This document shows positions 5,205-25,558 of a stretch of DNA of 29,676 nt, piece by piece. The position numbers were made by a program, and so were the translations under genes. The notes below the pieces were generated by a model. That model saw only the letters and a list, made by a program, of their open reading frames with translations. It had not been told where the DNA came from and made no database searches. The first letter of the stretch is position 1, and each line of letters opens with the position of its first letter. Source of the stretch: a virus; IMG/VR virus record IMGVR_UViG_3300034106_000793, positions 1 to 29,676 of that record. One strand, written 5' to 3'.

Positions 5205-5723
5205 TTACGGTTGCAAGGTGGTGGATGCAAGTTTGTGGGTTGTCCACTGCTTCCAGCCACCCACCCGCCAAATCTCCAACGCCGCCCTCGCAGACACCTC
5301 GGGCGTCATCAGGTCTTTACAGGTGGTCACTATTTGCATGGCTTGCAAATAACCGTCTGGCCAATACCGGTTGGGGCGACACCACGATTTTGTATGGATC
5401 TGCCATGCGGTCCATGAGATGCCGTTGTCTCCCCGTACCGAGTTGAGGCATCGGGACTCGAAGTAGGTGACGGCTCCAACCATCGGGAGTTCCTCTTCAG
5501 GCCACCCGGCATCTTTGGCGACGTCCATCCAACCTGGGCATGATTGCCCTTCAGCGACCTCCAGAGGCCTCCTGGTGGGGGGTGGGTTGGTTGTGGTGGG
5601 GGTGAGGGTGGTGACGCTTCTGGGGGGCTGTGGAGGCGTTTGGGGGGCTTCTGCGGCCATCGCTGGGACAAGTCCGAGGATGGCGGTGCAGGCGAGTATC
5701 ACGCTGATGGTGATGGCTTTCAT
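5205..5723 (-). CDS. Secreted lysozyme / transglycosylase-like protein
   Basis: The product is 172 residues from the ATG at 5723. A Sec signal peptide (1-23, MKAITISVILACTAILGLVP with an AMA-A cleavage site) is followed by a Pro/Thr-rich linker (26-53). The lysozyme-like domain follows: YFESRCL with probable catalytic E89, and SWTAWQIHT (103-111), the counterpart of the Y-G-L-W/F-Q-I signature of lytic transglycosylase and Rpf-like folds. It would cleave peptidoglycan outside the membrane. The frame remains open to an ATG at 5828 that has a far stronger ribosome binding site (AAGGAGG), adding 35 Arg- and Ser-rich residues. I prefer 5723 for the signal peptide, but the longer start is a real alternative. 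Confidence 0.75.
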   Translation of the reverse strand: MKAITISVILACTAILGLVPAMAAEAPQTPPQPPRSVTTLTPTTTNPPPTRRPLEVAEGQSCPGWMDVAKDAGWPEEELPMVGAVTYFESRCLNSVRGDNGISWTAWQIHTKSWCRPNRYWPDGYLQAMQIVTTCKDLMTPEVSARAALEIWRVGGWKQWTTHKLASTTLQP

Positions 5724-5747
5724 GGGGTAGTCCCTTTCTGTAAATAA

Positions 5748-5775
5748 CCGCACAGCCAAGGAGGAAACTGTGCGG
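5748..5775 (-). promoter_or_regulatory. Hairpin with anti-Shine-Dalgarno loop
   Basis: CCGCACAG (5748-5755) pairs perfectly with CTGTGCGG (5768-5775). In the minus-strand RNA the 12-base loop contains CCUCCUUG, exactly complementary to the CAAGGAGG ribosome binding site about 70 bases upstream (5837-5844). The hairpin lies between the two possible starts of the lysozyme gene. Loop pairing with the ribosome binding site could hide the upstream start. Confidence 0.4.
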
Positions 5776-5858
5776 GGTCGTCGACTCCTGACGCCCGCCG
5801 AGGCAGAGGACTGACCGTCCTTCAGCATAGTGGACACCTCCTTGTGATGTCTAAGTTG

Positions 5859-6122: not shown

Positions 6123-7117
6123 ACGACGTACTCTGCTGTGACGCTGCCTCGTTCCGGGTTGATGAAGTGGAGGCGTTGGGATGGTTTGCCTGTGGCGGCC
6201 ACGAACTCTTTTGCGTATTCGGAGTCTGATTCGATTGAGCCGGACACGAATACTCGTCCACCGTTGGCGAGGGTCATGCTGATGTTTTGGTGGTAGTGCC
6301 CCATGTAGCAGTCGTCGAAGTCTCCGATGACTCCTGATGCCCAGGCGTTGACTTTGCGCATGATGCCGAACGCCGGTACGTTGCCTCCGAAGCTCTTGAT
6401 TTCGTCGCCGTGGACGAGGAGTACCCGATAGTTGCCGACGGAGAACTGTTGGTACCAGGCGTCGGAATGTTGCCAGATGACGGGAAGGTCGTGGCATCGG
6501 TCTTGGGCAATCTTGTAGGCCATACGGTCAGCGTTGTCGCCGGCGTAGGTGCCGTCACCATACCGACCCAACCTGCCGTGATTGCCCCACTCACATACGA
6601 CCCGTAGGGGTTTGGCGAAGTTGGCTTGGAGGGTGCGCACCATGCGTTCAATGAGTCGAGCGGTCTCAAAGAACTGCTCAAATAGATGCGCTTCAATCTC
6701 CCAAACTTGAGAACTAAATACGTTCCCGCCCCCCTCCACCATGTCCCCACCCAACATCAACACGCACTCGTCAACCGGGTGGTCTTTGCGTTGGATGTCG
6801 GTGAGGGAGATGACTTTGTCGGTGAACTCTGCGATGCGACGATCCGCCACCGCAATGTTGTACGACGCAGTCTTCTTACCTAACTGCCAGTCGGTTGCGT
6901 GAACTAACGCAACCTCATGTCCTTTGCGTCGTTTATCCACGGCAGGGCGCTTGACAGCGAGTCCACGCCCAGATCCCTTAGCCGCCTCATAGGCTGCCTG
7001 ATAGATGGCTTGGACGAGGTCGTCGGTTCGTCGTTTGTTTCGGGCTGCCTCTCCTTGTGCTTTTTTGAGGAGTCGTTGAAGTTCGTCAATTTGTGATTGT
7101 TCTTCATAGGCGGTCAT
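6110..7117 (-). CDS. Calcineurin-like metallophosphoesterase
   Basis: The product is 335 residues. The metal-binding motifs of this superfamily occur in order: HATDWQLG (73-80; D76 with Gln in place of the usual His two residues on), GGDMVE (123-128), GNH (178-180), VHGDE (235-239) and GHYHQN (273-278). The N-terminal 65 residues form a charged helix that may be a coiled coil or DNA contact. Related phage proteins occur beside recombination nucleases and are thought to be SbcD/Mre11-like nucleases or phosphoesterases. No SbcC-like ATPase is visible. The start overlaps the stop of the HTH-like gene as ATGA. Confidence 0.85.
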   Translation of the reverse strand: MTAYEEQSQIDELQRLLKKAQGEAARNKRRTDDLVQAIYQAAYEAAKGSGRGLAVKRPAVDKRRKGHEVALVHATDWQLGKKTASYNIAVADRRIAEFTDKVISLTDIQRKDHPVDECVLMLGGDMVEGGGNVFSSQVWEIEAHLFEQFFETARLIERMVRTLQANFAKPLRVVCEWGNHGRLGRYGDGTYAGDNADRMAYKIAQDRCHDLPVIWQHSDAWYQQFSVGNYRVLLVHGDEIKSFGGNVPAFGIMRKVNAWASGVIGDFDDCYMGHYHQNISMTLANGGRVFVSGSIESDSEYAKEFVAATGKPSQRLHFINPERGSVTAEYVVWLT

Positions 7118-7347
7118 GATTCCTGAATCTCCCCACGCATACGAGCCAACGCCGTATATGAGATAGAGAACCCTTTAGATTTGAGAACCCTGTGGATAAC
7201 TGATGTGTTGAGTGCCAAATCTCGGCACGCTTTCTCAAAGTCTTTCCACCCTGAATCACCCAGAAACTCACGCAGCCGTCCGTCGGCCTTATTGGCGTTA
7301 GGACGCTTTGCGGCTTCCTGTTTTATTGCGTCGAGGAACTCTCCCAT
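7114..7347 (-). CDS. Small HTH-like DNA-binding protein (putative)
   Basis: The product is 77 residues. Residues 40-70 (CRDLALNTSVIHRVLKSKGF then ISYTALARMRGE) fit two helices with a turn and a recognition-type helix, a pattern common in short phage proteins that carry a resolvase- or MerR-like HTH. AAGGAGG precedes the ATG at 7347. The gene overlaps the end of the upstream membrane protein gene by 50 bases, longer than is normal here. It may regulate the left operon; this is inference. Confidence 0.55.
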   Translation of the reverse strand: MGEFLDAIKQEAAKRPNANKADGRLREFLGDSGWKDFEKACRDLALNTSVIHRVLKSKGFSISYTALARMRGEIQES

Positions 7348-7555
7348 TAGTGGCCTCCTTGAAGTGCCATTCGATGTGTGAGTCCACCTTACCTTCCACC
7401 CGTTCCATCGTGTGCGATACCCGCTTCAACGTATCCATCACCACCGCATGATCCCTGTGATTCTCCTGCCGGAACTGTTGGATGAGCACTACCAGAACTG
7501 ACCCCACAGCAGCGACGGCTGCCGCTATGACGAGTGCCCAGCCTTGGTCAAGCAT
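7298..7555 (-). CDS. Membrane-anchored coiled-coil protein, lysis-associated (putative)
   Basis: The product is 85 residues. One membrane helix (about 6-26, LVIAAAVAAVGSVLVVLIQQ) is followed by a helical charged region with heptad spacing (VVMDTLKRVSHTMERVEGKV) and a basic end. This form matches the small membrane/coiled-coil proteins next to lysin genes in actinobacteriophages (DUF2746-like), which are sometimes called accessory holins. Its ATG overlaps the stop of the endolysin gene by 8 bases, so it is probably translated with the endolysin. Confidence 0.65.
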   Translation of the reverse strand: MLDQGWALVIAAAVAAVGSVLVVLIQQFRQENHRDHAVVMDTLKRVSHTMERVEGKVDSHIEWHFKEATNGRVPRRNKTGSRKAS

Positions 7556-8105
7556 TGTCGTCGGCTGGTTTGTTTGCCAACCATTCCTTCACAGCTTCGG
7601 GAACCTGGTCACCGCACACCATGCGCAAATGCCACGGCTCACTCTGCAACTCCCATGAGAATCCGAATCGGTGGGCGTTCGCCAGCAACCAGTCCAACCG
7701 TTTCCCTGAAGCGTTGGCAATGTCGATGGCGATACCCCAGTTGTGATTGGAGGTACCCGGTACGGCCATTGGAGCCATGCCTTTCTTCAGGTACCACGCT
7801 TTGCCTTTGTAAATCCGTGGCTGCTGCTTCATCAACTTCTTGTTCGGCTTATCGGTGTAACGCTGATAGAAGCCGTACTCCTGAGTTTCCAAACTGCGAT
7901 ACGTGTCAGCCTGCGACGTTGGCGATAGGTCGATACCTGCTGCGTTTGCTGCCGCATCCATAGCCTCATAGCAGTCGGCTGCGAGATGATGCAATCTTCC
8001 CTTCCCCTCAATGGGGCGTAGCAGGTTGGCAGGAATCTCTCCTGCCTTGCATCCCTTCAGATCCGAAGGGAGAACGACCTTGACGATGGGGAACTGTTTT
8101 GCCAT
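7548..8105 (-). CDS. Endolysin, M15 family D-Ala-D-Ala/L-Ala-D-Glu peptidase (VanY-like)
   Basis: The product is 185 residues. The zinc motifs of peptidase M15 are present: SNHNWGIAIDI (119-129) supplies H121 and D128, and EPWHLR (156-161) supplies catalytic E156 and zinc ligand H159. There is no signal peptide, so release needs a holin. No separate cell-wall binding domain is obvious; the first 60 residues (helical) may position the enzyme. It would cut peptide cross-links of the host wall. It lies between two small membrane protein genes upstream and one downstream, forming the lysis cassette. The start overlaps the upstream stop as TAATG. Confidence 0.88.
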   Translation of the reverse strand: MAKQFPIVKVVLPSDLKGCKAGEIPANLLRPIEGKGRLHHLAADCYEAMDAAANAAGIDLSPTSQADTYRSLETQEYGFYQRYTDKPNKKLMKQQPRIYKGKAWYLKKGMAPMAVPGTSNHNWGIAIDIANASGKRLDWLLANAHRFGFSWELQSEPWHLRMVCGDQVPEAVKEWLANKPADDNA

Positions 8106-8368
8106 TACTTCTTGCCGTTGCTGAACGCTTCTTTGATTTCGTCGCTGGTGAGTTCACCGTCGGTTGATGCTGAGGCAAGTTTTTGGACGACTTCGAGAAC
8201 GGCCATTGCGCCTGCCAAGATGGCGGCTTTGCTGACCGACACTCCGATGACGGCTCCACCGGTGACTGCTGGGAGGGCTCGTGCTAGGAACAGCGAGAAG
8301 AGCCGTTGGCCGAGGTCAAGGAATCGTGCGATGGTTGCGTTCTGTTTGATACCCATGTCAGTTGTCAT
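8105..8368 (-). CDS. Small membrane protein, holin candidate
   Basis: The product is 87 residues. A long apolar stretch from about residue 22 to 66 (LFSLFLARALPAVTGGAVIG, then SKAAILAGAMAVLEVVQ) can form one or two membrane helices. The soluble end contains DGELTSDEIKEAF, which resembles an EF-hand loop, though it may be chance. Position directly before the endolysin and size suit a holin. Its start overlaps the end of the 58-residue membrane gene by 11 bases. Confidence 0.6.
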   Translation of the reverse strand: MTTDMGIKQNATIARFLDLGQRLFSLFLARALPAVTGGAVIGVSVSKAAILAGAMAVLEVVQKLASASTDGELTSDEIKEAFSNGKK

Positions 8369-8534
8369 CTCCGTCTCCCTGTGTTGCTGTTCCTGCCAAG
8401 TGTAGTGCCAGTGAGAGGAACGTGAAGAAGAGCGCCCAGTTTTGGATGGGTCCTGAGAGGGTCATGATGGTGATTGCTGACGCTCCGAGGGTGAAGCCGA
8501 GCGCCAAGATTTCATGCCCTATTTTCTTGAACAT
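8358..8534 (-). CDS. 58-residue two-helix membrane protein, holin candidate
   Basis: An ATG at 8534 opens MFKKIGHEILALGFTLGASA, followed by ITIMTLSGPIQNWALFF and TFLSLALHLAG, ending in an acidic DGDDN. Two membrane helices with short ends match the class II holin layout. It lies three bases after the stop of the PA14-like gene and overlaps the next membrane protein gene by 11 bases. Together the two could form a holin/antiholin pair or two-part pore for the endolysin. No ribosome binding site better than GGA is seen. Confidence 0.65.
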   Translation of the reverse strand: MFKKIGHEILALGFTLGASAITIMTLSGPIQNWALFFTFLSLALHLAGTATQGDGDDN

Positions 8535-8536
8535 TT

Positions 8537-9904
8537 CTAATTCCGTCTACGCAGGCTCGTTCCGACTGCCACAAGTGTAGAAGAGACGGCAACCAATGTT
8601 CTACGTTCGTCAACGGGAATCGTTGAGCCGATCATCACATACGAGTCGAACAGCCCGGTGAACACGTTGATGGCTGACTCGAACGCTTTGCGTACCTTGG
8701 TTGGTGCGTCTTGAACTGCGGCCACGATGGCTTCACCGTCTGCTGCGGTGAGGTCTTCAACGATGATGGTCTCAAAGATGGCTTCGGCTTGTTGTTCGGT
8801 GATGGCGACGAGGACTTGTGGGCTGGTGGCAAGTTCGGTGGCCTGTTCTGAGGTGGGTGTGGCTGCGAGCACTTGATTGATGGCTTCAACGATTTGGTCG
8901 TCGGGGAGGTTGGTGATGTCTTGGAGGAGTTCTTGGATGGCGGTGTCAACTTGTTCTTCGGAGAGTACGGTGGCTGGTTGTGATTCTTCTTCTGGCTGTG
9001 GCTGTTCTGTTGGCTCCTGGGGTGTTGTGGTTGTGGGTGTTGGTTCGCTGGTTGTTGATTGAGGAAGCTCAGGTTCGGTTGGCTGAGTCGTCTCAACAAC
9101 TGGATCGGGAGTCTGGGTTGTTGTAGTTGTCTCCGGTTCTGGTTCGGAGGTTGTGGTTGTTGGCTCTGGTTCGGTGGTCGTGGTTGTGGTTGTGGTTGGT
9201 TCGGGTTCGGGTTGGGTGGTGCTGGTGACGGGTGGCGTGTAGACCGTCGTTGTCGTGGTGGTGAGTTCTGTGGTGGTGGTTGATTCGATGGTGGTGGTGA
9301 CTGGATCAGTTGTTGTGGTTTCGGGTTGAGTGGTTGTGGTGACGGGTTCAGTTGTGGTCGTTGGCAATTCGGTGGTGGTTGGTGGGATGTTGTTGCGGGT
9401 GAATGCTTCGTCGGGGACGATGGCCCAGCCTTCGTTGTCAATGTTCCAGGCGAGCATGTAGCACGTTCCGCCACCCCACTCAAAGAACCAGCCGTCCAAC
9501 GGTTGCGAACCAGGCTCGACGTTGAGGGTGACTTGTTGGCTCCATTGGCAGCCTTTGATGTTCCATGTGCCGAACTCTGTCCCGGCGATATTTATGGTGC
9601 CGCCGTCGTCGGCTGCAACCATGAACTGAATCGTCTCATGTTCAGGGATGGTGATGAACCCTGTGTAGTGAACCATGAAGAAGTCATAGCCGCAGTCTTG
9701 GAATGGTTCGCCGTTGAAGTTGCGGTTGATGTTGTTCTCCACCTCCGATCCGCACACCGGATAGAGGTCATCGGTGGGTTGAGGTATGCCTGTTGGCTGA
9801 TAGGTGTAGCCGACAGCGTTCAGACCTGGTTGTGGTTCAGCTTGCGCCTGGAGAGGCCAGAACGCAAAAACAATGGCGGGAAGCGCAATCAGCGCCCGCT
9901 TCAT
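8537..9904 (-). CDS. Secreted PA14-like, Thr-rich surface protein
   Basis: The product is 455 residues. A signal peptide (1-22, ending AQA) leads into a PA14/GLEYA-like beta domain (about 25-165) with the VAADDGGTINIAG segment (97-107) typical of the PA14 fold and four Cys (51, 71, 119, 148) that could form disulfides. Residues about 175-310 are a Thr/Glu/Pro-rich stalk. Residues 312-430 are helical and acidic. The end is a short apolar segment followed by LRRRN, like cell-surface sorting tails but without LPXTG. It lies between tail genes and lysis genes, yet looks like a host surface protein. It could be a virion adhesin that binds sugars, or a protein displayed on the infected cell. Confidence 0.7.
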   Translation of the reverse strand: MKRALIALPAIVFAFWPLQAQAEPQPGLNAVGYTYQPTGIPQPTDDLYPVCGSEVENNINRNFNGEPFQDCGYDFFMVHYTGFITIPEHETIQFMVAADDGGTINIAGTEFGTWNIKGCQWSQQVTLNVEPGSQPLDGWFFEWGGGTCYMLAWNIDNEGWAIVPDEAFTRNNIPPTTTELPTTTTEPVTTTTQPETTTTDPVTTTIESTTTTELTTTTTTVYTPPVTSTTQPEPEPTTTTTTTTEPEPTTTTSEPEPETTTTTQTPDPVVETTQPTEPELPQSTTSEPTPTTTTPQEPTEQPQPEEESQPATVLSEEQVDTAIQELLQDITNLPDDQIVEAINQVLAATPTSEQATELATSPQVLVAITEQQAEAIFETIIVEDLTAADGEAIVAAVQDAPTKVRKAFESAINVFTGLFDSYVMIGSTIPVDERRTLVAVSSTLVAVGTSLRRRN

Positions 9905-10149
9905 TCCTCAACAGTCGGCGTGACGAACTCGTCCAACTCGGCATCGTAAATGTCACCGAGGCCTGCATACTTGCCACGGAAGTTGGCGTGGTAGGAAGTC
10001 TGCAACCATTCACCAGTCAAACCGATTGCCGCAATAAATGCTTGGCCGATTGGTTCTGATTCTGGGAACTCACCGCCGCCGCAATCGTCGTTGGATACGA
10101 CGATGACACGCTGAACGATGCCGTTAGTTACTTGTGCGAAGTGAGCCAT
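9901..10149 (-). CDS. Small tail-fibre-associated protein (cyanophage-like family)
   Basis: The product is 82 residues. The order MAHFAQV, VIVVSND, GEWLQTSYHANFRGKYAGLGDIYD and DEFV is a pattern I know from short proteins encoded by tail-fibre regions of many aquatic phages, including cyanophages. They are virion or fibre-assembly proteins; the exact function is not known. AAGGT lies before the ATG at 10149. Its stop overlaps the start of the PA14-like gene as ATGA-type contact (9901-9904). Confidence 0.7.
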   Translation of the reverse strand: MAHFAQVTNGIVQRVIVVSNDDCGGGEFPESEPIGQAFIAAIGLTGEWLQTSYHANFRGKYAGLGDIYDAELDEFVTPTVEE

Positions 10150-10151
10150 GA

Positions 10152-11168
10152 TTAGACCTTGAACCTAACTAGCACTATGCCGGAGCCGCCTTGTCCTGCG
10201 CTATTTGTGCCGCTATTGTTATTTCCGCCACCGCCGCCACCTGTGTTGGTGCTACCATTTGCGCCCGCATTGCCGCCACCGCCTGTGCCGCCTGTGCCAG
10301 ATGTGCCACCGCCTGCGCCACCGCCTGCATACAAGGTTGTGGCTGCTGTTTCACCTCTGAATGATGACGCATCATAACCTGCGCCACCTGTGCCGCCAAC
10401 CGACGAACCAGCACCATTTGAGCCGTTACCACCGCCGCCACCGCCACCACCACCACCAAAACTTGTGGAAGTTCCTCCTGCGTTACCACCGTTGCCGCCT
10501 TGTTGTCCTGCTCGACCTGTTGCACGACTGTCTGCCGTTGAACCGCCACCACCGCAACCACCGACATAGCCACAACCATTGTCACCTGCACCGCCAGCGA
10601 CATAACGCATACCAGCACCACCACCACCGCCGACAGCACTAATGGGTCGGTCAGCAACCGTACCAATACTTGATGCGCTACCGTTTATCTGAACACCACC
10701 ACCAGCACCAACTGTCACAGTTTGATTAGCGGAAAAATAAACAGTTTGCGTGACAACACCACCACCACCGCCGCCACCCATAAAAGCTGTTATGTTGTTT
10801 TCACCGCCACCTGCACCACCGCCAATCATCAAAACATCAAACAAGCCAGCCTTGGTCACCGTCAAGGTACCTGTCGCCGTAAAAGTCAACAACGTGTAAC
10901 TTGTTCCGCTTACGGTGATAGTTGCAGTAGAAGCGCCACCAGTCCCAGATCCGTATCCGGTTGAAACATCAACCCAAGCGGTGCCGTTGTAGACCTGCAA
11001 ACCTGTTGCCGTTGAATAGGCAGTCATCCCAACCTCGGGTGAGGGGAGTGCTGATGCTCGTGCTGCTGTACCAGCGAACACCATGACGGCTTGATCCATC
11101 AAATAGTTCTGAACATTGGAGGCAGTGAGAACTTCTCCAGAGGCGAAGGTGCGGAAGCCGGAACCCAT
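10152..11168 (-). CDS. Glycine-rich tail fibre / adhesin
   Basis: The product is 338 residues from the ATG at 11168. Residues 1-68 form a tail-attachment module (MGSGFRTFASGEVLTASNV and a GLQVYNGTAWV end) also present as a separate protein upstream. Residues 85-118 (ITVSGTSYTLLTFTATG then a VLMIGGG strand) open a glycine-rich domain. From 115 to 330 there are many GGGG runs separated by short turns, as in polyglycine-II adhesins at the tip of phage fibres; variable loops between Gly runs often decide receptor choice. It ends IVLVRFKV. No clear ribosome binding site is seen; reinitiation after the upstream stop is likely. Confidence 0.8.
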   Translation of the reverse strand: MGSGFRTFASGEVLTASNVQNYLMDQAVMVFAGTAARASALPSPEVGMTAYSTATGLQVYNGTAWVDVSTGYGSGTGGASTATITVSGTSYTLLTFTATGTLTVTKAGLFDVLMIGGGAGGGENNITAFMGGGGGGGVVTQTVYFSANQTVTVGAGGGVQINGSASSIGTVADRPISAVGGGGGAGMRYVAGGAGDNGCGYVGGCGGGGSTADSRATGRAGQQGGNGGNAGGTSTSFGGGGGGGGGGNGSNGAGSSVGGTGGAGYDASSFRGETAATTLYAGGGAGGGTSGTGGTGGGGNAGANGSTNTGGGGGGNNNSGTNSAGQGGSGIVLVRFKV

Positions 11169-11172
11169 AGGA

Positions 11173-11379
11173 CTAGATACTAACCCAGGCTGTGCCGTTA
11201 TAAATCTGCATACCTGTCGCCGTTGAGTATGCGACCATTCCTGTTTCTGGTGACGGCAACGCTGAGCCACGTTCTGCTGTACCTGCGAACACCATGACCA
11301 TCTGTTTCATCAGATAGTCCATCACGTTTGTGCTTGTCAATACTTCGCCACTGGCGAAGGTGCGAAATCCTGCTCCCAT
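11173..11379 (-). CDS. Stand-alone copy of tail-fibre N-terminal module
   Basis: The product is 68 residues, starting MGAGFRTFASGEVLTSTNVM. About 53 of 68 residues are identical to the first 68 residues of the next gene (10152..11168), so this is a tandem duplication in which only the attachment module exists as a separate protein. It ends with TAG at 11173 and the next ATG follows four bases later in another frame. It may cap or prime fibre attachment, or be a remnant of a lost second adhesin. The start lacks a strong ribosome binding site. Confidence 0.75.
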   Translation of the reverse strand: MGAGFRTFASGEVLTSTNVMDYLMKQMVMVFAGTAERGSALPSPETGMVAYSTATGMQIYNGTAWVSI

Positions 11380-14751: not shown

Positions 14752-15489
14752 TCAGTCCAAAGACAACGACTTTCTGAGATCAGCAAACTCACTACGCAAC
14801 GCCACCGCAACCTGCTGTTGAGTCATCCCAGCAAACCGACTCAAATCCTGCGGCTCATTCCACCACGCCTCATCCTGCCAGTAGTACTTCGCTTGATTGT
14901 GCGACTTCACGGTTCGAGGCATACGAGCCACATGCAAACGAGGGGGAACAAACAGTTCACCCAACCCAGCATCCAAGAACTCGCCATGCCCATACTTCCG
15001 AGACGACCAATCAAACCGTCCCACAGGATGCTGAGGCAGATAGAAGATGCGTGCAGGGTCCTTCGTGGCTGGGTCACCGACGACGTTGATGCGTTCATGC
15101 AACCGAGTCCATACCTCTGCCCAACGATGTGCAGGCACCGGGTCTTTGAGCGGAAGCACCAAGTGCCAATGCTCATCGTTCGGGCGATGCGACCAAGTCG
15201 TGTACGCAAACCATTCCAACCCATCCAGCCGTGCATAGTCGAACGACTCACCGTCCATGTCCACCACGAGACAGGTCACAGCCTCAACGTTGCGATTGCT
15301 TCGTGTGGTGCCTGATGCGTAGATGACTGGCGACCACAACGCACGCTGATCCTTGCGTTGAGTTTCCTTACGGATGCACAGACGAGACCACAACTGCACC
15401 CACGAACCAGCGAATGGCTTGGGGACGACAGACTTGACGTAGTCGAACCTGACGGCACGGACGTTGTCCAACTGAACTTCTGGGAACAT
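14752..15489 (-). CDS. Archaeo-eukaryotic primase-like (prim-pol/Rep-like) protein
   Basis: The product is 245 residues from the ATG at 15489, with AAGGAG before it. VTCLVVDMDG (71-80) holds a DxD metal pair (D77, D79). H101 follows in a TTWSHRPNDEHWHLVLPL segment, and DPATKDPARIFYLP (139-152) is the arginine-containing segment found in the N-terminal prim-pol domain of plasmid and phage replication proteins. No helicase domain follows, so it is a catalytic domain alone or a protein derived from one. The location is strange: between the gp10-like gene and the tape measure. It could be a moron, a replication protein out of place, or a primase fold reused. Confidence 0.65.
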   Translation of the reverse strand: MFPEVQLDNVRAVRFDYVKSVVPKPFAGSWVQLWSRLCIRKETQRKDQRALWSPVIYASGTTRSNRNVEAVTCLVVDMDGESFDYARLDGLEWFAYTTWSHRPNDEHWHLVLPLKDPVPAHRWAEVWTRLHERINVVGDPATKDPARIFYLPQHPVGRFDWSSRKYGHGEFLDAGLGELFVPPRLHVARMPRTVKSHNQAKYYWQDEAWWNEPQDLSRFAGMTQQQVAVALRSEFADLRKSLSLD

Positions 15490-15517
15490 GGCGGGCTCCT
15501 TACAAGTCAGCGTAGCG

Positions 15518-16057
15518 TCAGGTCGCACCCTGCGCAAGCTCTTTGAGAACCCGGTCAATGGCATCGCTGTATTCCTTAGCAATGAAGCCATTACTGTCCC
15601 GAACTGCCTGCCAGAAGAAATAGCCTTGACGGCCACGGTGACGCAAGAACTGTTGCGTCGTAGGACGACGACGACCACCGAACTCGGCACCAAAGAACAC
15701 ATCGCCCATCGTCACCTTCGTCTTGCGTTTGCGGTTGGGACGGGACGCTGAAACGAAGCCACGCTTGGAATCCAACTTGATAGTCGGGATGCGATCACGT
15801 CGAGCACGCAACCCATTCACCACAGCCTGAGCCTGAGACATCCCAGAGGAACCAGGCCGATTCGCACCATGCTTCGGCTGCCCTTGAGCGTTCACCTTCG
15901 CCTTGTCCACCACATGCTGGGCAACCTCTTGGGCTGCGATTCGCATCATCCTGTTGAAATCTTTGTCAGCCTGACCGGCGACTCGCAGAAACTCAAACAG
16001 GCCGTCAGCAGCGAACTGCACTTCACCGGCACGACCTATCGGTTTGGAAACAGCCAT
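15518..16057 (-). CDS. HK97 gp10-like tail completion / neck protein
   Basis: The product is 179 residues from the ATG at 16057. The helical start (FEFLRVAGQADKDFNRMMR then IAAQEVAQHVVDKAK), a basic middle and the end FFWQAVRDSNGFIAKEYSDA are typical of HK97 gp10-family proteins, which join tail to head. The usual place of this gene is before the tail terminator and major tail gene; here it follows the tail assembly chaperone. Two bases separate its ATG from the stop of the frameshift extension. A different tail role is possible. Confidence 0.65.
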   Translation of the reverse strand: MAVSKPIGRAGEVQFAADGLFEFLRVAGQADKDFNRMMRIAAQEVAQHVVDKAKVNAQGQPKHGANRPGSSGMSQAQAVVNGLRARRDRIPTIKLDSKRGFVSASRPNRKRKTKVTMGDVFFGAEFGGRRRPTTQQFLRHRGRQGYFFWQAVRDSNGFIAKEYSDAIDRVLKELAQGAT

Positions 16058-18156: not shown

Positions 18157-18822
18157 CTACTTGCCAACAAGCCACTGATTCCCAACAACCTCAACCTGAG
18201 CACCAACCGACCCAGCAAACTTGTAGACATCATTCCTCACAGCAGGCCAATCCAAATCATCACCCATCAACAACCCGCCCTTCACCAAAAAATCCCACGC
18301 CGTTGACAACTCCAAAAACGTCTCATCCTCCTCATGAGCCGAATCCACATACACCACATCAGGCCGATAGTTCGACACCCGCTCCAACACATTCATCCCC
18401 ACAATCCCCGTCGCAGGCAACGGAGTAATCACACCCTCAAACCCGGCATCCTTCACATTCGCCAAGAACCGTTGCCGAATCGTCGGAGCACCATTCACCA
18501 ACCCAAGAAACCGCCACTTCCCTTGACGCACCAAATCCTGCTCCCACGCCCACATATTCACATCACCCGTGAACGGATCAACACACACAATGTCCAACTC
18601 ACACCCAAGACGCTCAGCCACACGAGCCACCAACAACGCCGACCCACCCAACATCGACCCCACCTCAACCCAATACTGAGGCTTCCGCTCACCAATCACA
18701 CGCTCAACCAACGCCTCCGAAAGATGAGTATGCGGATACCCGTTATCCGACGGGCCAGCATCCGCATACACATCCTGCGAACCGAACAACACCCGGCGAA
18801 TCTCCTGACCGATCAGCCCCAT
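18157..18822 (-). CDS. Class I SAM-dependent methyltransferase
   Basis: The product is 221 residues. WVEVGSMLGGSALLVARV (51-68) is the glycine-rich SAM loop, IVCVDPFTGD (78-87) holds the acidic end of the second strand, and DVVYVDSAHEEDE (155-167) with LVKGGLLMGDD (179-189) completes a Methyltransf_24/cephalosporin-hydroxylase-type domain. Enzymes of this type act on sugars or small molecules. Linked by a 10-base overlap to the GT-like gene, it probably methylates a glycan built by the neighbours. There is no DNA methylase motif. Confidence 0.82.
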   Translation of the reverse strand: MGLIGQEIRRVLFGSQDVYADAGPSDNGYPHTHLSEALVERVIGERKPQYWVEVGSMLGGSALLVARVAERLGCELDIVCVDPFTGDVNMWAWEQDLVRQGKWRFLGLVNGAPTIRQRFLANVKDAGFEGVITPLPATGIVGMNVLERVSNYRPDVVYVDSAHEEDETFLELSTAWDFLVKGGLLMGDDLDWPAVRNDVYKFAGSVGAQVEVVGNQWLVGK

Positions 18823-19334
18823 GTTCCCTTGAACTTTCTCAAATAGTCATTCTCCAACACCATGTTCCGACGCCCATGATGCTCCACAAACCCCACATTC
18901 CGAGAATCCCGAAACTCAGGAAACACCACCGGCACCACACCAGCCGCAGCCGCATAGCCCCGAGTCCACTCCACCTCAGCCCGAATCGAATCCCGTTGCG
19001 TCACCGGCGAATACAACTCCACCCGCCCCAAATGCTCCCTCGTATAAATCCCCATAAACATCCCAAAAATGCCAGGGTCATCAGTCACCGACACCGAACC
19101 CTCATGCTCAAACATTCGGTCAAAGAACGCCTGGTCTTTCACCACCACCGAATCATGCAGAAACAGAAACCGATCCAGTTGAGTGTTCTCATACAGCCAC
19201 TTGATTTTCCCCAACTCCCACGTCCCACCCTGACGCAACACCAACACCTCACGCTCAATGCTCGCCAAACATTCAGCCAACCAAGCTTCACGCCCAGGAG
19301 TCGTGGCCACCACCACCGTCTCTTTCAATCCCAC
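18813..19334 (-). CDS. Glycosyltransferase-like protein
   Basis: The product is 173 residues from a GTG at 19334, chosen because GGAG lies six bases upstream. It starts like GT-A enzymes (KETVVVATTPGREAWLAECL). FLFLHDSVVVKD (57-68) is in the place of the donor-binding DxD strand, with HDS instead. FMGIYTREHLG and VEWTRGYAAAAG follow. The length is short for a complete GT2, so acceptor parts may be reduced. It overlaps the GT2 gene by 10 bases and the methyltransferase gene by 10. Membership in the GT-A fold is likely; activity is not certain. Confidence 0.6.
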   Translation of the reverse strand: MGLKETVVVATTPGREAWLAECLASIEREVLVLRQGGTWELGKIKWLYENTQLDRFLFLHDSVVVKDQAFFDRMFEHEGSVSVTDDPGIFGMFMGIYTREHLGRVELYSPVTQRDSIRAEVEWTRGYAAAAGVVPVVFPEFRDSRNVGFVEHHGRRNMVLENDYLRKFKGTWG

Positions 19335-19975
19335 CCCAACTCCAATCGTCGATTCAAGTCCCAATCCAACGGAACATCCTGCACCATACGCTCCTCAAAC
19401 AACCGACGATTCGCATCAAACGTCGCCTGATTCTTCTGCTGAAACTGAGCACTCGACTGCAACGTGCTGGAGTTCCGATGATAAATCGCAGCCGACGAAC
19501 GCACAATCTCTACACCCTTACGTTGCGCCCGAATCTCATAGTCATTGTCCTCAAAGTACGCCGGATGAAACCCCTCATGAAACAAGCCAACTTTCTGCAC
19601 CACACCAGCACCCAACCAGAAACACGACCACGGCGGCTTCCCACCCAACACCAAATTGTTCGTCGACGCCAACCGAAACATATCCTCAACACCGTTCGCA
19701 CCAAACGCCACATCATGATTCACAATCAACCAACCCGACGCCTTGCACGTCGCCTTGATCCCAAGATTCCACGACGCAGCCACACCCAAATTCGTTGGCA
19801 TCCGATAATGAAATATGCGTTGCGCCTTATCAGTGAACGGCACCCACTTCGGATGATTCCCATTGTCAATCACCACCAGGTCACAAATACGGCCATCAAA
19901 CGAAGCCAACATCGAATCCACTCGATGATGCTCCGTAAGCACCGGGACGACTACGACTGGGACAAGCGGCACCAC
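19325..19975 (-). CDS. GT2-family glycosyltransferase
   Basis: The product is 216 residues from GTG 19975, with AAGGAG eight bases upstream. DLVVIDNGN (32-40) holds the nucleotide-binding Asp. NLGVAASWNLGI (62-73) is the classic GN-G-A/G-x-N-x-G segment. WLIVNHDVAF (82-91) is the DxD equivalent, and YFEDNDYEIRAQRKG (140-154) carries the catalytic acidic pair E142/D143. This is a rhamnosyltransferase-like layout. It overlaps the GT4 gene by 25 bases. It would add a sugar to a glycan or to a virion protein. Confidence 0.85.
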   Translation of the reverse strand: MVPLVPVVVVPVLTEHHRVDSMLASFDGRICDLVVIDNGNHPKWVPFTDKAQRIFHYRMPTNLGVAASWNLGIKATCKASGWLIVNHDVAFGANGVEDMFRLASTNNLVLGGKPPWSCFWLGAGVVQKVGLFHEGFHPAYFEDNDYEIRAQRKGVEIVRSSAAIYHRNSSTLQSSAQFQQKNQATFDANRRLFEERMVQDVPLDWDLNRRLELGWD

Positions 19976-21252
19976 TCAGCAATCTCCTTCATCGCCGGCT
20001 TCCAATGCGACTCAAACACAGCATCAGCCTCATAACGCTTCGCAAAGTCAACAGCCTTCTTAGAACGGCCACGACCACGGGCATACGCCTGCTCCAACGC
20101 ATCCAAAATGCTCGGCACCGAAGGCGTCAAAAACCACGACTTCTGAGCAGCATCCCAAAACGGCTGACCCTCCACAACCCAACCATCCCCAACCAACTCC
20201 GGCTGAGCCGTAAAGTTCGAGACGACAACGGGCGTACCACACGCCTGAGCCTCCACCACAGGGATACCGAAGCCCTCCCCCATGCTGGCAGCCAGAAGCA
20301 CGTCAGCGCCGCTGTAGAGGGCTGCCATAGCGTTCTGGGGCAAACCTAGACGGTAGAGGTAGGCGTCGGCATATTTGATGCGATGCGGCTCAATACCGCA
20401 CATCTCAGCCAACTCTTTCAAGTTGATACCACCAGCCGACCCCATCTCCTCAGAATGCATGTACAGGACTGCGTCCGGGTGTTTCTGGGCAAACATGCTG
20501 AACGCCATAAAGTTCTCAGCGAACGCCTTGCGTGGCGGATAGACACCCTTGTTCGCTGCGGTCATCATGACCACAAACTGATCCTCAGCAAACCCCATGA
20601 TTTCACGGCCAGTGATTGACTTGCCACTCTGGTCTTTGATGTTTGGCGTCGGCTTGAACACCGACTCGATACCGTGAGGAACATACAGGCTGCGAATCCC
20701 TAACTGCTCCAACATGCGAGCACCGAACTGGCTCATCGCAATAGGCATCACATTCGGACGTTGACAAAACGCAGCAACCTCCGGCGGACACGGCTGGTGA
20801 TCCACCGGCACCCACGACGCAATGTTCGGAACCTTGTCCAGGTTCGGGGCCTTCAACACCCACACGTCAAACAACGTCATCAGCAACTTGGGCAGATTTG
20901 TTGCCTGAGTCCACTCCATCCAATGCGCAACGACCACATCGTCGCTATATGCACTCATTCCCCTCGGGTAGATTTTGATGCCGTTCCACGTCGACGTTGA
21001 CCCTTCGAGCCCGTAGATTGCGTGGATTGCGATTTCGTGCCCGTCTTTGATGAGCCTTTGGACCGCTTGCTGGGTTTGTTGGCCGTAGCCCGTTCCCGCC
21101 CACGGGGCGTTCGAGTACCAGAGGGCTCGGACTGCGTCCGAGGATCTACGACTGACTCCTCTGGTAAGTGTGCTGCGCCCCGTTGCAAGAGCAGGATCGC
21201 CGTCGGGTCGGGTAAGTCCAATGGGACTCCCTTGATGATGATTCGCATTCAC
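19951..21252 (-). CDS. GT4-family glycosyltransferase (GT-B fold)
   Basis: The product is 433 residues from GTG 21252, with GAGGAG before it. The GT-B part begins near residue 43 (ALWYSNAPWAGTGYG), has a YVPHGI turn (190-195), and shows the donor-binding segment GEGFGIPVVEAQACGTPVV (325-343) with the E-x7-E pair E326/E334. No ATG, GTG or TTG occurs between residue 1 and residue 99, so the conserved start of the fold can only be reached from 21252 (or by an unusual start or a frameshift). The first 42 residues look unlike a domain and overlap another frame (20955-21248). It probably acts with the two following GT genes. Confidence 0.82.
   Translation of the reverse strand: MNANHHQGSPIGLTRPDGDPALATGRSTLTRGVSRRSSDAVRALWYSNAPWAGTGYGQQTQQAVQRLIKDGHEIAIHAIYGLEGSTSTWNGIKIYPRGMSAYSDDVVVAHWMEWTQATNLPKLLMTLFDVWVLKAPNLDKVPNIASWVPVDHQPCPPEVAAFCQRPNVMPIAMSQFGARMLEQLGIRSLYVPHGIESVFKPTPNIKDQSGKSITGREIMGFAEDQFVVMMTAANKGVYPPRKAFAENFMAFSMFAQKHPDAVLYMHSEEMGSAGGINLKELAEMCGIEPHRIKYADAYLYRLGLPQNAMAALYSGADVLLAASMGEGFGIPVVEAQACGTPVVVSNFTAQPELVGDGWVVEGQPFWDAAQKSWFLTPSVPSILDALEQAYARGRGRSKKAVDFAKRYEADAVFESHWKPAMKEIAEWCRLSQS
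20955..21248 (-). CDS. 97-residue frame nested in the GT4 gene
   Basis: An ATG at 21248, four bases after the GTG of the GT4 gene, opens a 97-residue frame. The first 40 residues (MRIIIKGVPLDLPDPTAILL, QRGAAHLPEE) look like a real small phage protein with a beta hairpin and helix, similar in style to the 56-residue protein near the major tail gene. From about residue 45 it becomes a Lys/Ser/Thr/Arg-rich tail that is probably only the shadow of the GT4 domain. Both starts share one ribosome binding site. Either the two are dual-coded, or an ancestral short gene and the GT4 gene have been fused by indels. Confidence 0.5.
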   Translation of the reverse strand: MRIIIKGVPLDLPDPTAILLLQRGAAHLPEESVVDPRTQSEPSGTRTPRGRERATANKPSKRSKGSSKTGTKSQSTQSTGSKGQRRRGTASKSTRGE

Positions 21253-24799: not shown

Positions 24800-25558
24800 T
24801 CAGAGCATCAACACTACTTGCAAGTCATCCTCTTCAGCAGAGAATGCAATCACACCAACAGCCGACGCCTGACAACCAATCACAATCGGCGCCACATACC
24901 CCTCAACAACTCGCACAGGTTCCACAACCATCTCAACAACATCAACAACAGACTCAACCTTCTTGCGAGGCCGTTGACGTCGATACGGATACGGCTGACC
25001 GCCACCATCCGACACAGGCTCAGGCTGAGGCTGAGGCGTCACCGTCCCAACAGCAACACCAACCAAACCACCCAAACCAGCAGACGCAGAACCAATCTCC
25101 GACGCAACACCAACCGCCGACGCATCAACACCACCCAACAAACCCTCACCAGAACCCACCACCGTCAACACACCAGAAGCACTCGACGACACACCACCCA
25201 ACCCGCTCGACGCTGACGCAACCACCGTCACCACACCCGACGCCGAAGCCGTCAACCCACCAAGATCGGAAGAAGCGTCACCGAAATCCTCAATCGTCAC
25301 ATCACTCACATCGGCGAACAGTTCGCCGAGTTCGGCTGATGCCACACCGGTGACAACTGGTGTCACCGTGCCGATGGCTGTGGCTGCTATTGCACCGAGG
25401 TTTGCTGATGCTGTGGCGGTGGTGGTGAAGTTGGCGCCGTCTAGTTTGCCGTCACCGTCAAGCGTTGAGGTGTCAAGGACGAACGCTGGGGATGGGCCGC
25501 CGAGACCGACGTTCTCGTCGTTGAGTTGCGACTGGTCAAGGTAGAACCGTGTGACCAC
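24800..25558 (-). CDS. Repeat-containing structural protein (six ~21-residue repeats)
   Basis: The product is 252 residues from GTG 25558. It begins with two related short motifs, FYLDQSQLNDENVGLG (5-20) and FVLDTSTLDGDGKLDG (26-41). Six repeats follow with the LG pair at residues 54, 77, 99, 120, 141 and 162, so spacing is 23, 22, 21, 21 and 21; a consensus is ASAxLGGLxASAxGVVTVV. Then comes a Pro/Gln-rich hinge with a basic patch (PYRRQRPRKK, 191-200) and a V-rich end. Repeats like this probably form a beta stalk. It sits between portal and protease genes and may be a head fibre or a connector decoration. Confidence 0.65.
   Translation of the reverse strand: MVTRFYLDQSQLNDENVGLGGPSPAFVLDTSTLDGDGKLDGANFTTTATASANLGAIAATAIGTVTPVVTGVASAELGELFADVSDVTIEDFGDASSDLGGLTASASGVVTVVASASSGLGGVSSSASGVLTVVGSGEGLLGGVDASAVGVASEIGSASAGLGGLVGVAVGTVTPQPQPEPVSDGGGQPYPYRRQRPRKKVESVVDVVEMVVEPVRVVEGYVAPIVIGCQASAVGVIAFSAEEDDLQVVLML

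Follow-up and report, generated by a model that had tools for sequence, protein, structure and literature searches.

A stalked PA14-type phage protein and its 58-residue neighbor as a probable surface-display unit with relatives in Acidimicrobiia

The locus and its gene neighborhood

The DNA analyzed here (the window), a virus record, spans 29,676 bases and encodes terminase, portal, capsid, tail, and lysis functions on its minus strand. It also carries a gene for WhiB, which an excerpt of PMC10202952 describes as a marker of actinobacterial phages, and we regard the window as a virus of actinobacteria. Our focus is a minus-strand gene at 8537..9904 that encodes a protein of 455 aa, here called the stalk protein. 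The ORF list, the sequence, and the relatives described below agree that this ORF is real, as the first-pass annotation had proposed; that annotation had missed its minus-strand orientation.

The stalk gene sits in a tight run of genes, all on the minus strand. Upstream, the gene for a Gly-rich protein and putative tail-tip adhesin (10152..11270; Gly_rich_2, E 1.3e-11) follows the tail genes, and next to it is a gene for an 82-aa protein of PHROG 7759, of unknown function (9901..10149), whose stop codon overlaps the ATG of the stalk gene (ATGA). Downstream, an apparent gap is filled by a gene of 58 aa (8358..8534), which begins with an ATG 2 bases after the stalk stop codon. The next gene (8105..8368) shares 11 bases at its start with the 58-aa gene and encodes an 87-aa membrane protein that is termed holin-like solely from position and hydropathy; after it comes the gene for an M15/VanY-type peptidase, the probable endolysin (7548..8105; Pfam VanY, E 2.1e-14). 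Between 8300 and 10300 on the minus strand, we found no terminator-like or promoter-like site. Altogether, the ATGA overlap, the 2-base gap, the 11-base overlap, and the run from tail-side to lysis genes suggest that the stalk protein is probably made late in infection. A distant DNA search with 7000-10200 gave no match in phage records.

Elsewhere in the window, the minus strand encodes a second secreted-looking protein (5205-5837), with a Sec-like signal, a Pro/Thr linker, and lysozyme-like similarity to SLT_3 that narrowly misses the cut-off (E 5.8e-5); many related phages have relatives of it. Between the capsid and tail genes (18157-21252, minus), we recognized by eye a putative methyltransferase and three putative glycosyltransferases, which possibly act on virion or surface glycans. 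A primase/replication-like protein, also recognized by eye, is encoded within the tail module (14752-15702, minus), adjoining the tape-measure gene, and the product of 24800-25558 (minus), downstream of the portal gene, consists largely of imperfect Ala/Ser/Gly/Val repeats.

Anatomy of the stalk protein

The protein begins with a Sec signal peptide (residues 1-22; 9839..9904, minus), MKRALIALPAIVFAFWPLQAQA, in which an AxA-type site precedes EPQPG. The Sec signal named in the first-pass annotation is thus recognizable here, and similar signals occur in relatives: a crude pattern, which asks for a hydrophobic run and then AxA no later than residue 75 of a stop-to-stop ORF, fits 128 of 174 relatives.

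The signal is followed by the head (residues 23-172; 9389..9838, minus), which had been described as a PA14-type domain with probable disulfides. Structure prediction, which the same annotation had proposed for the head and the C-terminal domain, gave a beta PA14 fold for the former and helices for the latter. AlphaFold models residues 23-175 as all-beta with a mean pLDDT of 94.7, and Foldseek against the PDB ranks the Marinomonas primoryensis adhesin highest, through its PA14 domain (6x8a; E 4.6e-9, TM 0.79), with anti-sigma PA14 domains and the yeast adhesins Epa and Flo at lower ranks. A profile built from 46 heads likewise matches PA14 chains in the PDB (best E 6.8e-25). The Pfam PA14 family (PF07691) stays below threshold for the window protein (E 0.09; 13 bits vs a cut-off of 24), and the head is a member of the PA14 superfamily by its modeled fold rather than by PF07691. 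Of the 46 aligned heads, 36 have all four cysteines (51, 71, 119, and 148) and the other 10 have none; kept or lost together, the cysteines fit two disulfides. An adjacent Asp-Asp pair is invariant (46/46), and we take it to be the Ca/sugar site of Ca-dependent PA14 lectins. The head is probably sugar-binding and is treated here as a candidate lectin.

Composition defines the stalk (residues 173-308; 8981..9388, minus): 61 Thr, 26 Pro, and 21 Glu in 136 residues, very close to the 135-residue Thr/Glu/Pro stalk first described. The C-domain (residues 311-455; 8540..8974, minus) is delimited by alignments and by an all-helical AlphaFold model with a mean pLDDT of 81, in which the last helix (431-448) is weakly predicted and pLDDT in the final two blocks, at the hydrophobic end, falls to 54 and 51. 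A fold search with the C-domain gave no PDB match below E 0.5. When one fixed rule is applied to the 136 distinct phage proteins that are full-length and have this C-domain, every one has a Thr-rich stalk, which indicates that the arrangement is more than chance.

The C-domain ends in 16 uncharged hydrophobic residues (436-451; 8552..8599, minus) and then RRRN, so that the helical domain, apolar end, and Arg of the earlier description all stand. Among 83 distinct C-terminal tails, this end is short, mostly 15-18 uncharged residues, and the net charge of the last eight residues is +3 in 60 and +2 in 20. None of the C-domain sequences inspected has an LPXTG-like motif before the hydrophobic stretch; their conserved stretch is YVPxGSxIPVxxRR, and we rejected an LPXTG-like sorting signal because the motif is absent.

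A two-helix partner of the stalk protein

By profile and sequence comparison, the 58-aa gene encodes a two-helix membrane protein with a TLSG motif, the partner of the stalk protein. In some large phages and several bacteria, the C-domain continues into a Gly/Ser linker and two hydrophobic helices. A profile built from these fused tails matches 120 of 14,576 ORFs at phage loci: 11 are stalk ORFs, 109 lie directly downstream of one, and none lies elsewhere, in a set of loci that were all picked by the C-domain, so that solitary partners elsewhere would escape the count. Of the distinct phage stalk proteins, 157 are closed at the 3' end; too little DNA lies behind 10 of them, and these were left out. 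All of the 147 testable proteins have a partner, as a separate gene in 140 and fused in 7. The partner is equally constant at the bacterial loci described below (15/15; nine fused, six separate), and in a search of one bacterial family, 14 of 14 genomes with the C-domain also carry the two-helix protein. TLSG is kept in 99-100% of 111 distinct partner sequences. A search of 50,697 phage records with the window's 58-aa protein matched a single place, in Actinomycetia phage DSL-LC01, where the match falls at the 3' end of the stalk ORF (E 7e-3). The 58-aa protein has no Pfam match, its closest PHROG (E 0.068) has no assigned function, and no holin family was matched.

Two further genomes, G889 and G938, have the two-helix protein without a C-domain match, and two more have marginal two-helix matches (E about 9e-4). 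The phage-like locus in G889 (L277) has a signal, a head, and a Thr-rich stalk, and although its base differs, it retains both the partner and the hydrophobic end, here with SRR; these two elements may thus make up the core of the anchor. The end of the stalk protein, first described as surface-sorting-like, is not of the LPXTG type and instead resembles a short membrane anchor that is always paired with a two-helix partner. The first-pass annotation saw the stalk protein itself and missed both its cellular relatives and the partner, which falls below the 60-aa limit of the ORF list; a gene of 58 codons is easily overlooked.

The pair lies directly before the holin-like and endolysin genes (75 and 70 of 76 small-phage loci, respectively, have these genes downstream of the stalk gene). 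This would fit a part in lysis, in which the two-helix protein is holin-like and the stalk protein regulates or helps lysis, and actinobacteriophage lysis cassettes with two-helix holin-like proteins have been described (PMC13056207, in excerpt). We nevertheless consider a lysis role quite improbable: bacterial chromosomes and some large phages encode this two-helix piece as an extension of the stalk protein, only 24 of 45 large-phage loci have a relative of the window's holin-like or M15 gene downstream, and the head exchange described below is not expected of a lysis protein.

Viral relatives and exchange of heads

The whole stalk protein as query found 41 viral loci. The C-domain alone found at least 577 confirmed stretches in viral contigs among the 599 pattern matches listed, and a second C-domain alignment at least 370 among 599 listed; the best 80 were kept from each. 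The collected loci hold 197 C-domain ORFs, which represent 159 distinct proteins; 136 of these are distinct and full-length, and in 92 of the 136 the head is of the same PA14 type as the window's. Among the records of the GenBank phage collection, the C-domain was found only in DSL-LC01, described in the available part of PMC10611076 as a metagenome-assembled actinophage from a lake, and there was one faint head-side match in an unannotated record. We did not find the stalk-gene/partner pair described in Pfam, PHROGs, or the open-access literature searched. One contig in a Gammaproteobacteria MAG (L206) combines a stalk protein with M15, holin-like, and exonuclease-like genes and is likely a misbinned phage contig; given these neighbors, we rejected it as cellular evidence and counted it with the viruses in the tree below.

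The heads are diverse. Compared with Pfam, 74 heads include 30 PA14 (E 0.01 or better), 12 FN3, 5 LCCL, 5 EPTP, 5 GLEYA, and 4 PPC, and beta-helix heads also occur. The 85 small-phage proteins compared give 646 pairs whose C-domains are at least 80% identical, and in 139 of these the heads fall below 40% identity; in two example pairs with 92% and 96% endolysin identity, the heads share no sequence. In the same set, 284 pairs have heads at least 75% identical on C-domains less than 55% identical. These comparisons indicate that related phages exchange heads and that divergent phages can share them. Head identity also tracks that of the putative tail adhesin once relatedness is removed (partial Mantel r 0.19, 39 phages; 0 of 500 permutations as high), a weak correlation that could be explained by linked transfer of nearby genes.

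Heads swapped in the manner of receptor-binding proteins, encoded directly after tail-side genes and before lysis genes, could belong to a virion attachment protein, either exported and joined to virions after lysis or a virion part with an unusual leader. We regard this as highly unlikely: the same signal, stalk, base, and partner are encoded in chromosomes without nearby phage genes, and the constant two-helix partner points to the membrane.

Relatives in Acidimicrobiia and the origin of the unit

A first pattern scan of genome contigs confirmed none of 151 matches as the C-domain, and a second scan with other conserved stretches confirmed 2 of 221 pattern matches. Profile searches found chromosomal copies, and we rejected a phage-only C-domain on this basis. 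The homologue search in actinobacterial genomes that the first-pass annotation had suggested thus yielded relatives in Acidimicrobiia: the C-domain is present in 7 of 395 genomes of this class (class from taxonomy look-up) and in 14 of 221 genomes of one family, that of the Acidimicrobiaceae MAG with locus L205, while the two matches in a phylum sample of 396 genomes had both been found already. Genome completeness is not stated in these tallies, which makes absence of the C-domain soft.

Fifteen Acidimicrobiia loci sit among cellular genes, which by eye include ABC transporter, aldo-keto reductase, P450, and MFS genes, as well as GroEL with IMP dehydrogenase and VOC with an enoate-reductase-like gene. 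The bacterial copies have the same signal-stalk-C-domain-two-helix plan as the phage unit and are either headless or carry RCC1, DUF4082, or DUF285 heads. Three small genomes (L234-L236) encode a headless stalk whose last residues are closely like the window's, and their partner gene begins 2 bases behind the stalk gene, as in the window. Tetranucleotide correlation with the window is 0.56-0.82 over the 15 loci and only 0.56-0.64 in L234-L236, the most window-like in gene layout, which speaks against these three as the host. The relatives indicate that a surface-anchor unit is common to phages and Acidimicrobiia.

We placed the bacterial copies in a C-domain tree of 64 rows (49 viral, 15 bacterial) with an arbitrary root, leaving out short-span C-domains, merging phage rows alike at 88% or more, and using the 3' ORF alone for the L205 copy, which is split over two ORFs. 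The bacterial rows fall in three places among phage rows and need three changes, and a one-change tree appeared in 0 of 200 bootstraps; the three changes may equal one gain and two losses, and several rows are long-branched. For the earlier suggestion of a captured host surface gene, kinship with chromosomal genes is thus supported, and with three placements and an arbitrary root, transfer may have gone in either direction. The unit could instead be of phage descent and taken up by the bacterial family, perhaps as a superinfection defense. The patchy bacterial distribution (14/221) vs the abundance in viral contigs (at least 577 stretches) and the three places in the tree favor this, while the tree has no safe root and the RCC1, DUF4082, and DUF285 heads of bacteria are absent from the Pfam families of the 74 phage heads; we find phage descent somewhat doubtful.

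The same family bears on another possible use, adhesion, in which the displayed head would stick infected cells to cells or particles so that progeny are released beside new hosts, or would replace a host adhesin. A PA14 head on a Thr-rich stalk with a membrane end is the plan of cellular adhesins, adhesin PA14 domains are the closest folds, and PA14 heads occur in chromosomes of 18 of the family's 221 genomes (E 1e-6), some of them on other stalked, membrane-ended proteins. The late position beside lysis genes would leave little time for aggregation, and we judge adhesion unlikely. Among the chromosomal PA14 surface proteins (L252-L257), several have a lipoprotein-like signal, a Thr-rich stretch, and a membrane end.

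A model for display on the infected cell

We consider it likely that the stalk gene and its 58-aa neighbor together make up a surface-display unit of two parts. The first-pass annotation had suggested, among other options, display on the infected cell, and this gains support from the plan of signal, stalk, C-domain, and two helices common to phage and chromosomal relatives. The stalk protein would be exported by Sec, the hydrophobic end and the partner would hold it in the cell membrane (a topology predicted from hydropathy and charge), and the stalk would carry the head past the wall of the infected cell. There, the head may bind surface or released glycans on the infected or lysed cell, which would keep virions, foreign or progeny, from adsorbing.

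This use, a block to superinfection by other virions or to re-adsorption of the phage's own progeny, is a tentative proposal; the explanation as a whole, display unit plus blocking, we put a little short of an even chance. Among the uses we prefer masking, because the exchange of heads is reminiscent of receptor-binding proteins and head identity shows a weak correlation with that of the putative tail adhesin. Bacteria keep the unit in their own chromosomes, in some cases headless, so its basic role need not be antiviral, and the FN3, LCCL, beta-helix, and PPC heads found besides PA14 argue against a confident single use. More speculatively, and with some doubt on our part, a large group of actinobacterial phages may display exchangeable lectins through a unit that moved between phages and bacteria more than once; the heads would co-evolve with the tail adhesin and serve to mask receptors or as decoys. 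If this is true, the glycan arms race is fought on infected-cell surfaces as well as at the tail tip.

To our knowledge, the majority of genes in phages of aquatic actinobacteria lack an assigned function. The stalk-partner pair is very common, occurring in hundreds of viral contigs, and has a clear anatomy and cellular relatives; the 58-aa partner, these relatives, and the head exchange are new here. The pair would be a case of tailed phages remodeling the infected-cell surface with modules of bacterial surface proteins, and it may help connect many uncultured phages with Acidimicrobiia.

Comparison with known systems

PA14 adhesins, such as the M. primoryensis ice-binding adhesin and yeast Flo/Epa, have a head-on-stalk plan. 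The phage head is like theirs in fold and in its conserved Asp-Asp pair, but they use other anchors, and identity to the head is about 10-15% in structural alignments. The phage protein shares a C-terminal hydrophobic stretch and basic tail with LPXTG and other C-terminal sorting signals; unlike LPXTG-type signals, it has no LPXTG, its hydrophobic stretch is short, a second gene lies alongside, and some of its relatives extend past the stretch with a linker and two helices. The partner resembles the LysF1a-type two-helix holin-like proteins of actinobacteriophages, as described in an excerpt of PMC13056207, in small size, two helices, and proximity to an endolysin gene; this likeness is by description only, and a difference is that bacteria and some phages carry the partner piece joined to a surface stalk.

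CwpV of Clostridioides difficile, a variable surface protein that excludes phages, is a precedent for exclusion by a surface protein (PMC4737114, in excerpt). It is a cell-wall protein encoded by a host gene and leaves adsorption unaffected, so it lends no support to receptor masking as such, and we do not class the phage unit with it. The PA14 protein of a cryophage that infects a Bacteroidota host is likewise phage-encoded, exported, surface-sorted, and part of a variable gene module, and it uses a host type IX sorting domain, according to the accessible portion of PMC7468147. What sets the phage unit described here apart from the cryophage protein is its constant partner gene, its Thr-rich stalk, and a C-domain that has no name, together with the link to actinobacteria.
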